From: Nostoc carneum NIES-2107
Lineage (GTDB): Bacteria; Cyanobacteriota; Cyanobacteriia; Cyanobacteriales; Nostocaceae
Direction: 5' to 3'
NCBI GenBank assembly: GCA_002368155.1
Contig: AP018180.1
Span: 6,466,908-6,530,907 of the forward strand
DNA length: 64,000 bases
This document shows positions 11,283 to 15,931 of this stretch, in pieces. The notes under the pieces are model-generated. The model made no database searches, had not been told where the DNA came from, and saw only the letters and a program-made list of their open reading frames with translations. Within the stretch, counting starts at the first letter, position 1, and each line of letters opens with the position of its first letter. Both the position numbers and the translations under genes were made by a program.

Positions 11283-12995
11283 ATGACCAAAAATCCCTCA
11301 CCCCAAATTTGGCTTTATGACACGACGCTACGGGATGGTACTCAGCGTGAAGGGCTGTCTGTGTCTATAGAAGACAAGTTACGCATCGCCAAAAGATTAG
11401 ATCAATTGGGGATTCCGTTTATTGAAGGTGGTTGGCCCGGTGCCAATCCCAAGGATGTACAATTCTTCTGGCAACTTCAAGAATATCCGCTCAAACAATC
11501 AGAAATTGTGGCATTTTGTTCCACACGCCGCCCCAACACCACTGCTGCGTCTGAACCGATGCTGCAAGCGATTCTGGCGGCTGGTAGTCTTTGGGTGACA
11601 ATTTTTGGCAAGTCTTGGGATTTGCACGTCACAGCCGGGCTGAAAACGACATTAGAAGAAAATTTGGCGATGATCCGCGATACGATTGAGTACCTTCGCA
11701 GCCAAGGGCGACGTGTGATCTACGATGCTGAACATTGGTTTGATGGCTATAAGCACAACCCTGAATATGCTTTACAGACATTAGAGACTGCGATCGCATC
11801 TGGTGCAGAATGGCTAGTTCTCTGCGATACCAATGGCGGGGCGTTACCTCATGAAGTAAGCCAAATTGTCCAAGATGTGGTTAAGGTGACTGGGGAATGG
11901 GTACTGGGTACTGGGAAAGATTGTCCCCAATCACCAATCACCAATCACCAATCCCCAATCCCCCAAATTGGCATTCACACTCATAATGATTCTGATATGG
12001 CTGTGGCTAATGCTTTAGCTGCTGTCATGGCTGGGGCGACAATGGTACAAGGTACAATAAATGGTTATGGTGAACGTTGTGGTAATGCAAATCTTTGTTC
12101 TTTAATTCCCAATTTACAGTTGAAGTTAGGTTATAGCTGTATCGGTGAAGACGAGCTAGCACAACTTACAGAAGCCAGTCGCTTTGTCAGCGAAGTGGTA
12201 AATCTGGCTCCTGATGAACACGCTCCGTTTGTCGGTCGGTCAGCATTTGCTCACAAAGGTGGTATTCATGTATCCGCAGTAGAACGCAATCCCCTAACTT
12301 ACGAACATATTCAGCCAGAACAAGTAGGGAACCGTCGCCGCATAGTCATTTCCGAACAATCTGGACTCAGTAATGTGTTAGCCAAAGCCCGAACTTTTGG
12401 CATTGAATTAGATCCTCAGCAACCAGAAGCACGGCAAATTCTCCAAAAAATGAAGGATTTGGAGAGTGAAGGCTATCAATTTGAAGCTGCAGAGGCGAGT
12501 TTTGCCCTATTGATGCACGAAGCTTTAGGTAATCGTCCCCAGTTTTTTGAAGTTAAGGGTTTTCAAGTCCACTGTGACTTAATTGAAGGTAAAGCAAGCA
12601 GCAGCGCCCTAGCGACAATTAAAGTAGCTGTTAATGGTAAAAATATTTTAGAAGCCGCCGAAGGTAATGGCCCAGTAGCAGCTTTAGATGCGGCTTTACG
12701 CAAAGCGCTGTTAAACTTTTATCCCCAAATCGCTGCTTTTGAGTTAACAGATTACAAAGTCCGTATTCTCAATGGACACACAGGTACAGCCGCAAAAACA
12801 CGGGCATTAGTAGAATCAGGTAACGGTCATCAACGCTGGACAACTGTGGGGGTTTCGCCAAATATTTTAGAGGCTTCCTATCAAGCTGTAGTCGAAGGAT
12901 TAGAGTATGGTTTATTACTCCACTCTCAAGCCGAAGCCCAGTTTCCTGCTATCCAAAAGCCCAAAATCGAAAATACCAAAATTGCAGAATCTTGA
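11283..12995 (+). CDS. cimA: (R)-citramalate synthase
   Basis: A homolog of the isopropylmalate synthase/CimA family. It condenses acetyl-CoA with pyruvate to citramalate, the threonine-independent route to 2-ketobutyrate and isoleucine that cyanobacteria use. Near the N-terminus it has LYDTTLRDGTQREG with the metal-binding Asp, and GIHTHNDSD with the HxH metal ligands; a C-terminal regulatory (LeuA-dimer) domain spans about 400-545. The start at 11283 (MTKNPSPQIWLYD) is preferred because the family begins just before the LYDTTLRDG strand; an upstream TTG-type start at 11241 would add 14 unlikely residues. Oddity: just before GIHTHND lies an in-frame insertion of about 25 residues (VLGTGKDCPQSPITNHQSP) encoded by the genome's repeat sequence. 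Confidence 0.92.
   Translation: MTKNPSPQIWLYDTTLRDGTQREGLSVSIEDKLRIAKRLDQLGIPFIEGGWPGANPKDVQFFWQLQEYPLKQSEIVAFCSTRRPNTTAASEPMLQAILAAGSLWVTIFGKSWDLHVTAGLKTTLEENLAMIRDTIEYLRSQGRRVIYDAEHWFDGYKHNPEYALQTLETAIASGAEWLVLCDTNGGALPHEVSQIVQDVVKVTGEWVLGTGKDCPQSPITNHQSPIPQIGIHTHNDSDMAVANALAAVMAGATMVQGTINGYGERCGNANLCSLIPNLQLKLGYSCIGEDELAQLTEASRFVSEVVNLAPDEHAPFVGRSAFAHKGGIHVSAVERNPLTYEHIQPEQVGNRRRIVISEQSGLSNVLAKARTFGIELDPQQPEARQILQKMKDLESEGYQFEAAEASFALLMHEALGNRPQFFEVKGFQVHCDLIEGKASSSALATIKVAVNGKNILEAAEGNGPVAALDAALRKALLNFYPQIAAFELTDYKVRILNGHTGTAAKTRALVESGNGHQRWTTVGVSPNILEASYQAVVEGLEYGLLLHSQAEAQFPAIQKPKIENTKIAES
11889..11964. repeat. Heptamer foldback repeat inserted in frame inside cimA
   Basis: G-rich units (GGGTACTGGGTACTGGG) followed by C-rich units (CCCCAATCACCAATCACC, CCAATCCCC). 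The arrangement matches the intergenic blocks at 8262, 30125, 32421 and 45791. It lies between the strand ending VVKVTG and the conserved GIHTHND motif, keeps the frame and contains no stop codon. Homologs should lack it. Confidence 0.85.
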
Positions 12996-13595: not shown

Positions 13596-15737
13596 ATGAA
13601 AGAAATCCTTTATTTAGAAGTTCCGACACCAGATACAGCAGCTGTACGCAGTTGGCTACAAGCAGATTTTCAACCTGACAATGGTGAAAAAATAAATACT
13701 CCAGATGGATTTCGTTTGAGAGTATCTGCTGACACTACAACGACTACAGCACCGATTTCCGAAAATTTGCCAACGGAACTTTCTATATTTGTTTGGTCGG
13801 TACAGCGCACTACTTATTTAAAAGTGTTCCGTTGGGCAGATCGACCTTTTCCTCAAGAAAGGCAAATTCTACACCGCCTAATTACTGACATCAGAAGCCG
13901 CTTTCCTCATAATTACCCAGAACCCCCAGTCATTGATTTATCCCAACAATCAATATTTGACGCATTACAACCTGATTACCCCCTCACCGTCAAGTATTTT
14001 CAGAAAATGCCCAATGGGGAATATGACCTCACACGCGCCTACTGGTGGGAACAAAGATGGCGTGAAGGGGTAAGGAATCCTCAGCAACCGCGACAGGTGG
14101 TGTTTTCGCATCAAGGGGACTGGGGACTGGGGACTGGGGACTTGGGACTGGGAAGAACATCTCCCTCATCCCCTACATCCCCTACCTACGACATCATCTA
14201 CATCGGTGGCGCATTAGGTGCTATCCATGCGGCAGTGATGGCGAAATTGGGATATAAAGTATTACTGATAGAGCGAATGCCTTTTGGGCGGATGAATCGA
14301 GAATGGAATATTTCGCGTGATGAACTGCAAAGCTTGATTAATTTAGGTTTGGTAACTCATACCGAGTTAGAAACCGTCATTGCTCGTGAGTATAAAGACG
14401 GGTTCAATAAATTTTTTGATGGCAACAATCCCCCAAAATTGCGATCGCCTGTTTTGCATACTCCCACCGTGCTGAATATTGCCCTGGACTCTGATAAATG
14501 GCTGCAAATGTGCGGTCAAAAGCTCCGTGCCGCAGGCGGTGAAATCTGGGATGAAACAGAATTTTTACGTGCTGATATTTATAAAACACAAGTTTTAGTT
14601 AATGTCAAGCATCTACCAAACCAAAAAGAACAGCAAGTAACTGGACGGCTGCTAGTGGATGCGATGGGTACAGCTTCCCCTATTGCTTGGCAATTAAATG
14701 GCGGTCGGGCTTTTGACAGTGTTTGCCCTACGGTGGGGGCGGTAATTGATAAGGGATTTGAGCCGCAAGTTTGGGATTCGCAGTATGGGGATGTTCTCTA
14801 CAGCCACGGTGATATTTCTCGCGGCAGACAATTAATTTGGGAATTATTTCCGGGAATTGGGGAAGAATTGACAATTTATTTGTTTCATTACCACGAAGTC
14901 AACCCCAAAAATCCTGGTTCCTTGTTAGAGATGTACGAGGACTTTTTCACAATCCTGCCAGAATATCGGCGCTGTGAAGTAGACAAGCTGGTGTGGAAAA
15001 AACCCACCTTTGGCTATATCCCTGGTCATTTTAGTGTGGGCAGTAGCGATCGCACAGTTGCCTTTGATAGATTAATTGCGATCGGTGACGCTGCGTCACT
15101 CCAATCGCCTCTCGTATTTACTGGCTTTGGTTCTTTAGTACGTAACTTAGAACGTCTGACAAAACTTTTAGATATTGCCCTCAAGCATAATCTGCTAAGT
15201 TTCCGCCATTTAAACCGAATCCGCGCCTACCAAAGTAACGTTTCGGTAACTTGGCTATTTTCTAAGGGCATGATGGTACCAACAGGTAAATTCTTACCAC
15301 CCCAAAGAATCAACTCTATGCTGAATACCTTCTTTGGGCTGTTGGCAGATGAACCCCTAGATGTTGCAGATAATTTCATTAAAGACCGATGTGATTGGTT
15401 CACCTTTAACCGCCTTGCCATCAAAGCAGCCCGCAAAAATCCAGCCCTGCTATTGTGGATTTGGGAACTAGCAGGGCCAAGAGATTTGCTGCGTTGGCTG
15501 GGAAATTATTTTAACTTTGGTAGTTATGCCCTAGTCAGCGCTTTATTGAATGGTTGGTTTGCCAGCTTCCTCAATAAAATCGGCCCTTGGCTAGAACCCC
15601 GCTATCCGGCATTGTGGCTGCGACTATTAGCTATTAACTACGCTATCATCACAGGCAAACCGCGATCGCCAAATCAAGTAGCGAAAGTTCAACCAGAAGA
15701 CTCAATTCAAAATTCAGAAGCACAAATTCTCAATTAG
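13596..15737 (+). CDS. cruA: CruA-type lycopene cyclase (FAD-dependent)
   Basis: A flavoprotein of the CruA/CruP family, which in cyanobacteria lacking CrtL-type cyclases is linked to cyclisation of lycopene to monocyclic or bicyclic carotenes. It has a 170-residue N-terminal extension, then the FAD-binding motif IIYIGGALGAIHAAV (about 200-214 of this form) and the family signature GRMNREWNISRDEL; a later conserved segment reads AIGDAASLQSPLVFTGFG. ATG 13596 (MKEILYLEVPTPDT) has a GGAG about 14 bases upstream and is preferred to a TTG at 13548. CruP is a paralog with a photoprotective role, so the exact activity is inferred; GRMNREWNISR favours CruA. Immediately before the FAD motif is an in-frame repeat-derived insertion (DWGLGTGDLGLGRTSPSSPT). 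Confidence 0.82.
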   Translation: MKEILYLEVPTPDTAAVRSWLQADFQPDNGEKINTPDGFRLRVSADTTTTTAPISENLPTELSIFVWSVQRTTYLKVFRWADRPFPQERQILHRLITDIRSRFPHNYPEPPVIDLSQQSIFDALQPDYPLTVKYFQKMPNGEYDLTRAYWWEQRWREGVRNPQQPRQVVFSHQGDWGLGTGDLGLGRTSPSSPTSPTYDIIYIGGALGAIHAAVMAKLGYKVLLIERMPFGRMNREWNISRDELQSLINLGLVTHTELETVIAREYKDGFNKFFDGNNPPKLRSPVLHTPTVLNIALDSDKWLQMCGQKLRAAGGEIWDETEFLRADIYKTQVLVNVKHLPNQKEQQVTGRLLVDAMGTASPIAWQLNGGRAFDSVCPTVGAVIDKGFEPQVWDSQYGDVLYSHGDISRGRQLIWELFPGIGEELTIYLFHYHEVNPKNPGSLLEMYEDFFTILPEYRRCEVDKLVWKKPTFGYIPGHFSVGSSDRTVAFDRLIAIGDAASLQSPLVFTGFGSLVRNLERLTKLLDIALKHNLLSFRHLNRIRAYQSNVSVTWLFSKGMMVPTGKFLPPQRINSMLNTFFGLLADEPLDVADNFIKDRCDWFTFNRLAIKAARKNPALLLWIWELAGPRDLLRWLGNYFNFGSYALVSALLNGWFASFLNKIGPWLEPRYPALWLRLLAINYAIITGKPRSPNQVAKVQPEDSIQNSEAQILN
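14114..14190. repeat. Heptamer foldback repeat inserted in frame inside cruA
   Basis: Four to five GGGGACT units followed by CTCCCTCATCCCCTACATC-type C-rich units, the same architecture as the repeat in cimA and the intergenic copies. It encodes Gly/Leu/Asp then Ser/Pro/Thr residues directly upstream of the FAD-binding strand. Frame is preserved and no stop is introduced. Confidence 0.87.
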
Positions 15738-15743
15738 ATTGGG

Positions 15744-15783
15744 GCATGGGGCATAGGGCATAGGGCATAGGGCATGGGGCATA
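15744..15783. repeat. GGGGCAT/AGGGCAT heptamer tandem
   Basis: Five to six tandem copies of a heptamer GGGCAT(A/G) start eight bases after the cruA stop codon. They are followed by degenerate CCTTGAC units. This is a typical short tandemly repeated repetitive sequence of filamentous cyanobacteria. Confidence 0.75.
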
Positions 15784-15829
15784 AAATATATAATTTACCT
15801 TTGACCCTTGACCTTTGACCCTTGACTAC

Positions 15830-15849
15830 AGACGCGATTAATCGCGTCT
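15830..15849. repeat. GACGCGATT/AATCGCGTC palindrome, copy 1
   Basis: A perfect 20-base palindrome, AGACGCGATT with AATCGCGTCT, between the convergent cruA and coiled-coil genes. Other copies are at 24045, 28341 and 47495. It could form a strong hairpin in either strand's RNA, but there is no T-run. Confidence 0.75.
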
Positions 15850-15856
15850 CTCCAAC

Positions 15857-15926
15857 TTTTGACTTTTGACTTTTGACTTTTGACTTTTGACTTTTGACTT
15901 TTGACTTTTGACTTTTGACTTTTGAC
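15857..15926. repeat. TTTTGAC heptamer, ten perfect tandem copies
   Basis: Ten uninterrupted copies of TTTTGAC, ending six bases before the stop codon of the minus-strand gene at 15932. The perfect repetition suggests recent slippage expansion, so copy number should vary between strains. Confidence 0.92.
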
Positions 15927-15931
15927 TTTAA

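Follow-up and report, generated by a model that had tools for sequence, protein, structure and literature searches.

The cruA locus and its linker

The window, a 64,000-nt stretch of the Nostoc carneum NIES-2107 genome (contig AP018180.1, positions 6,466,908 to 6,530,907; the 9.36-Mb genome is called G000 below), contains a cruA-like gene with a repeat-built segment between its N-terminal domain and its FAD-binding part. The features of the gene, in window positions, are:

13596..15737, + strand: cruA-like lycopene cyclase gene, 713 aa (match in 97 of the 98 genomes searched, our own included)
13596..14114, + strand: CruA N-terminal domain, residues 1-173 (AlphaFold elements up to E169-171; conserved in a 49-sequence alignment)
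14115..14186, + strand: hypervariable repeat-built linker, residues 174-197, 72 nt (linker comparison; low pLDDT)
14115..14152, + strand: G-rich heptamer array, 5.4 copies of GGGGACT (TRF; genome-wide counts)
14157..14185, + strand: C-rich 9-mer array, 3.2 copies of ACATCCCCT, reading TSP/SSP (TRF)
14187..15737, + strand: FAD-binding/cyclase part, first strand at residues 198-203 (profile matches, AlphaFold)

By kinship the gene is a CruA lycopene cyclase, its activity being predicted: the protein is 98% identical to one from Tolypothrix tenuis PCC 7101, and JGI gives the name "lycopene cyclase CruA" to several relatives that share 80-87% identity with it. An alternative start at TTG 13548 is possible. 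FAD/reductase family profiles (a Pfam match and four NCBIfam matches below the curated cut-offs) begin matching at residues 197-204, and the linker, which translates as GDWGLGTGDLGLGRTSPSSPTSPT, is flanked by VVFSHQ and YDIIYIGGAL. In the AlphaFold model (mean pLDDT 79.4, pTM 0.80) the pLDDT drops below 50 at residues 175-191, which lie between one strand at 169-171 and the next at 198-203, and also in the three further segments 46-55, 498-509, and 696-713; the linker is thus a low-confidence segment in the model and probably disordered. A search for sequence-related solved structures returned none at E 0.01. The initial annotation had recognized an in-frame repeat segment in cruA just ahead of the FAD part, and this holds, with two TRF arrays in the 72 nt. 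Directly behind the gene, at 15742-15929, three heptamer arrays with the units GGGCATA, ACCCTTG (rotation TTGACCC), and ACTTTTG are packed together.

Linker repeats and the host genome

An 18-mer of the linker, GGGGACTGGGGACTGGGG, has 501 overlapping matches in its own genome, 252 forward and 249 reverse, against 0 for the same pattern read backwards; the repeat observation is therefore real and well beyond chance, and the cruA segment belongs to the dispersed short tandem repeat population of its own genome. To see how far linkers elsewhere follow their hosts, we picked six units from prominent cruA linker arrays, counted them in 98 genomes as overlapping matches, with the linker's own array included, and compared linkers with and without each unit among 94 linkers at copy thresholds of 1.7 and 2.0. 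Some units are nearly private: GGGGCAGA has 238 matches in its host G089 and at most 7 in any other of the 98 genomes, and CCTCAGT is confined to its host G095 (84 matches) and G020 (9), with 0 in the remaining 96 (at the 1.7-copy threshold the G024 linker counts as a carrier too, though its genome has 0 matches). Host G028 ranks first in count for CCCCACT, the two hosts of GGGGGACAA rank first and second, and GGGGACT gives p 1.6e-5 over seven hosts, or 3e-4 over five at 2.0 copies, while host G027 of GGGGACAA ranks only 8 of 94. Combining the six units yields p 3.5e-16 at the lower copy threshold and 5.8e-18 at the higher, values that ignore relatedness. The clearest individual example comes from G001. 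No other of the 98 genomes has as much GGGGGACAA, which is also the most abundant in G001 of the six units counted: it carries this unit forward in a linker of a U32-family gene and reverse-complemented in its cruA linker. The counter-case is G039, which has the most GGGGACT (1102 matches) yet a different unit in its own cruA linker. Taking the six chosen units together, cruA linkers tend to carry host-abundant repeats, which are sometimes nearly private to the host.

The cruA linker across relatives

The linker was measured in 94 genomes. G083 has no cruA match, G016 and G087 were not fetched because their genes are in split pieces, the broken gene of G067 (L095) was excluded, and one of the two G079 copies was used. 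The stretch from VVF to YDLIYIGG ranges from 27 to 195 nt and is a multiple of three in each genome, all 94 reading frames being at least 600 aa long. As the initial annotation had proposed, we compared CruA with that of related strains, and the homologs do carry other sequence at the site, differing strongly between genera. TRF found arrays in 35 of the 94 linkers and none in the other 59, as against 40 of 1880 (2.1%) matched control segments from the same loci. Most of the length variation of CruA resides here (8-64 aa, sd 13.1, versus an sd of 7.2 for residues 20-690 outside the linker).

We repeated the comparison in named genomes, using the best 80 of 501 relatives found, of whose linkers 18 were already in the set and 62 were new. 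All 80 are multiples of three, on which ground we reject an assembly or annotation artefact. The pooled set holds 156 distinct linkers of 27-219 nt, all 156 of them multiples of three; the only match of odd length (L346) comes from a gene whose frame is broken elsewhere. Tandem arrays occur in 75 of the 156 and are built from 61 different units, and the 58 linkers with an array unit that is not a multiple of three are still, without exception, divisible by three overall. When the linker is left out of the alignment and a tree is made with FastTree, the presence of an array requires at least 21 changes and the array unit at least 33, both rough figures.

The CruA linker has thus been filled, replaced, and resized many times by tandem repeats in the Nostocales, often by repeats that are abundant in the host. 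Within the window's family (57 linkers) the median length is 57 nt, with 21 linkers of at most 45 nt and 33 of at least 54 nt, whereas the 37 linkers outside the family have a median of 39 nt, 26 being of at most 45 nt and 10 of at least 54 nt. These lengths suggest that the site may have started out as a short, relaxed linker.

Repeat-filled linkers in cimA and other genes

About 2 kb upstream of the cruA linker, a second gene of the window carries arrays of the same class:

11283..12995, + strand: cimA, citramalate synthase (profile match, TIGR00977, 873.5 bits)
11892..11966, + strand: hypervariable repeat-built loop of cimA, residues 204-228 (the solved relative 6ktq is gapped over much of it)
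11889..11915, + strand: ACTGGGT heptamer array (TRF)
11927..11960, + strand: CCAATCA heptamer array (TRF)

Both genes had been assigned to one repeat family. They do share one class, short tandem arrays with units of 7-9 nt, but the segments are not copies of each other, as the cimA units ACTGGGT and CCAATCA make plain. The cimA linkers of the 30 genomes that were fetched as loci and measured, out of 58 with a match, span 27-120 nt. By eye, four are of the GGGGACT type and a larger group carries TTGTCAT/ATGACAA arrays, the types being split even within a genus: G000 and G004 share one array type, and G002, G003, and G006 share another that goes with different codons at the left flank. In G006 a 48-nt hairpin interrupts the array seen in G002, and one of three equally good placements of it falls exactly between two GACAAAG units. 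The 25-nt core of this hairpin, allowing up to 2 mismatches, was present in 11 of 19 genomes and three times in G006.

Two further genes, a GH31 glucosidase and a U32-family protein, were chosen because our own genome's copies carry arrays. For GH31, 30 loci minus 9 paralogs, duplicates, or unpaired entries left 21; the loop is long (51-132 nt) in G011, in G012, and in seven members of the window's genus, where the units differ from genome to genome within a genus, and short (6-21 nt) in the remaining 12. The U32-family protein has three repeat-filled linkers, each measured in 21 genomes (28 rows minus 2 of G020, 2 of G067, and 3 duplicates). The dropped rows of G020, a decayed copy, had gaps of 70, 202 (a misalignment), and 48 nt, and those of G067, which is in pieces, had one misaligned gap. 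At the six sites together, all 208 retained linkers are multiples of three, broken copies having been left out beforehand. Moreover, an sll1366-family SNF2 helicase of G000 (L179:18645-18678) carries an in-frame GDWGLGT array.

The linkers of cimA, the GH31 glucosidase, and the U32-family protein behave like that of cruA. The idea of a repeated, frame-preserving invasion of genes is right insofar as the segments are in frame, derived from repeats, and found also in cimA, GH31, U32, and SNF2 genes; since the same site in homologs is filled with other sequence, often other repeats, what the cruA site represents is a recurrently recolonized linker and not one invasion. A position at a domain boundary, put forward as a possible reason for tolerance, is not required: in GH31 the arrays fall within the match to the TIM-barrel domain, and in cimA they fall in the part of the catalytic-domain region that can be aligned to solved relatives.

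Arrays across the genome and the reading frame

To place these genes in context, we sampled 60 stretches of 20 kb from our own genome plus the window (1.264 Mb), in which a simple codon-score caller made 874 gene calls that cover 75% of the sequence. Of the 435 heptamer arrays counted, whatever their unit, 344 are intergenic, 62 span a gene edge, 16 are close to a gene end, and only 13 are well inside called genes, although three quarters of the sample is coding. The window, deliberately included, contributes 27 of the 435 and 4 of the 13, and for at least 4 of the 13 the gene call itself is weak, truncated, or short (two arrays in L130, one in L174, and one at window 23482). The units of all 13 genic arrays are stop-free in the sense reading, versus 475 of 714 strand readings of intergenic 7/8-mers; among the genic 8-mer arrays, all short, 3 of 4 units have a stop in some frame. 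GGGGACT is free of stops in all six frames, and the spacer units beside cruA, TTGACCC, GGGCATA, and ACTTTTG, have stops in every sense frame.

Genes are thus mostly without arrays and the survivors are mostly compatible with coding, and frame preservation is therefore best read as a selective filter and not as a property of the element. The initial annotation's frame-preserving insertion is correct as to the lengths, which are in frame; as to insertion itself, the rarity of genic arrays and the decayed U32 copy of G020 (L206, L213), which has many stops and an array-bearing gap whose 70 nt are not divisible by three, speak for the filter. In a comparison of 464 kb of our own genome with 400 kb of its near relative G002, synteny was so poor that 287 gene calls yielded only 11 alignable orthologs. 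All 4 of the gaps in these have lengths divisible by three, a sample that is too small and in which two of the gaps are those of cruA and cimA themselves.

Hairpin features of the linkers

We also considered a hairpin module that moves as a unit. When linker arms were swapped, permutations as good as the real pairs numbered 0 of 5000 for cimA, 27 of 5000 for cruA, and 1452 of 5000 for cruA linkers of at least 75 nt. After length normalization the result was reversed for cruA, where across 88 linkers 4952 of 5000 permutations equalled or outdid the real pairs, and with length-matched swaps the difference was not significant (p 0.051-0.065 for cruA, 0.22-0.37 for cimA). As the arm-pairing effect vanished once length was controlled, the moving hairpin module is unsupported and we dropped it. 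An inverted partner lies within 80 nt of 58 of 324 intergenic heptamer arrays, as opposed to 0 with shuffled flanks, and of only 1 of 11 genic ones. Reading the linkers by eye, we noticed neither terminal inverted repeats nor a target-site duplication at the cruA site.

Origin of the linker repeats

A functional nucleic-acid element, be it an RNA or DNA G-quadruplex, a hairpin, or a phase-variation switch controlling cruA, would account for the four-run G4 motif predicted from sequence in the window linker and for the folding of some linkers slightly better than that of their shuffles (mean z −1.12 for cruA linkers of at least 54 nt, n = 43; −2.43 for cimA, n = 23), and oligonucleotides derived from the repeat formed G4s in vitro (PMC4692102). 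Given that a sense G4 motif is present in only 12 of the 94 cruA linkers, that the short ones give no folding signal (mean z −0.04, n = 45), and that none of the 156 distinct linkers is out of frame, we regard such an element as highly improbable. That cruA was continuous until a single recent in-frame insertion, which its position at a domain boundary made tolerable, is barely credible: the segment is indeed in frame and at a boundary, but each of the 94 genomes has a linker there, 35 of them with arrays, and the GH31 and cimA sites show that no such boundary is involved in those genes. Allele replacement, in which species acquire parts of cruA or cimA from one another horizontally, could explain why the two cimA array types go with different left-flank codons; on the other hand, cruA linkers tend toward units abundant in their hosts, and the number of unit changes on the tree would demand very many such exchanges, so that we find allele replacement improbable.

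Local slippage deserves more attention. Many arrays begin, by eye, at a left border of CAAGGG or CAGGGG, which could be seeds of slippage; copy number differs between close relatives, and as many as 33 of the 122 array calls in cruA linkers are 9-mers, a unit length at which slippage keeps the frame. Slippage acting alone, with arrays growing from short G- or C-rich seeds within the linker and nothing imported, is nevertheless unlikely, as nearly private linker units match the host genome, one host unit occurs in opposite orientations in two genes, and different units occupy one site among genomes of the same genus. We consider it probable instead that the CruA linker has been refilled repeatedly by dispersed host repeats, both imported and slipped, with selection filtering frame, stops, and folding. 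New arrays would arrive by copying from dispersed arrays, through gene conversion, template switching, or a transposition-like insertion, and slippage would also contribute. Most arrivals in genes would be lost because they shift the frame, introduce a stop, or disturb folding, while linkers that tolerate any length and composition would keep the rare compatible outcomes until later events rewrite them. Some units may help passively, GGGGACT by its lack of stops and any 7-nt unit in that it would give one heptapeptide cycle whatever the frame; a sequence-specific function of the linker would not be required.

More broadly, a copying process in heterocyst-forming cyanobacteria might spread host-specific tandem repeats into genes and spacers and so continually rewrite the disordered linkers of housekeeping enzymes, a generalization that we offer tentatively and rate at somewhat less than an even chance. 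If true, non-coding repeat DNA would steadily supply these organisms with new disordered protein sequence, and nothing but frame and stop codons would filter it strictly.

Relation to known repeats

The heptamer repeats themselves are of a known cyanobacterial kind. We equate the GGGGA(C/T)T heptamers with the STRR of filamentous cyanobacteria, and the window repeat has the corresponding traits: at least two tandem units, dispersal on both strands, and over-representation outside genes. Vioque is said to have described, in 1997, STRR sequences within the RNase P RNA gene of heterocyst-forming cyanobacteria, which would likewise be short tandem repeats inside a functional gene in the same group of organisms; there, however, the host is an RNA gene and the reading frame therefore makes no demand. 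The small dispersed repeats (SDR) of Nostoc punctiforme, treated by Elhai in 2008, are reportedly small hairpin-like pieces nested in heptamer arrays. The cimA hairpin of G006, nested in its array, is like them by description, whereas no such piece was seen in the window's cruA linker.

The closest precedent is that of the GGGGA(C/T)T heptamers of Nostoc sp. PCC 7120, 68% of whose 89 repeats are intergenic and some intragenic (PMC4692102). The unit is identical, dispersed on both strands, mostly outside genes, and has a G4 motif; the refilling of one linker by different units across genera is what sets our case apart from the accessible part of that account. An STRR in the promoter region of hoxW is able to form a hairpin (PMC2670836). 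Rickettsia palindromic elements are inserted in frame in unrelated metabolic genes (PMC10969869), and the invariably in-frame cruA linkers resemble them in this respect. Unlike these elements, which are about 150 bp long and in defined families, cruA linkers have units that are mostly of 7-9 nt and vary from host to host, and they are refilled at one site; with so many different units in the array-bearing linkers, they contain no conserved element of about 150 bp. We found no description of refilled linkers in the open-licence literature, to which our search was confined, and the recurrent recolonization of enzyme linkers, often by host-abundant repeats, looks new.

One linker followed across many genera amounts to a set of replicated natural experiments, which bear on two open questions: how heptamer repeats spread in bacteria and how proteins come to tolerate sequence that derives from non-coding repeats. 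The affected protein matters to the cell, judging from the Synechocystis cruA (sll0147) knockout, which segregated incompletely in the wild type and segregated when plant cyclases were present (PMC8291087). Because they evolve fast, the linkers may also be useful for telling strains apart.

Other repeat-associated sites

Three minor observations are added here. By eye, a similar core with a GGCTTCC loop is found in L100 (cimA, G006) and in L307 (cruA, Nostoc sp. MG11), which suggests a small dispersed hairpin that enters linker arrays. In G000, an RppA-like response regulator gene (L130:18505-19284) has several copies of the 14-residue unit VTRYINNANQCIAI and two heptamer arrays before its NCBIfam match, which starts at model position 58, and looks like a gene truncated at repeats. 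Finally, window positions 13731-13775, about residues 46-60 of CruA, encode a second low-confidence loop of variable length within the N-terminal domain, the segment 51-75 ranging from 16 to 43 residues across 94 sequences.
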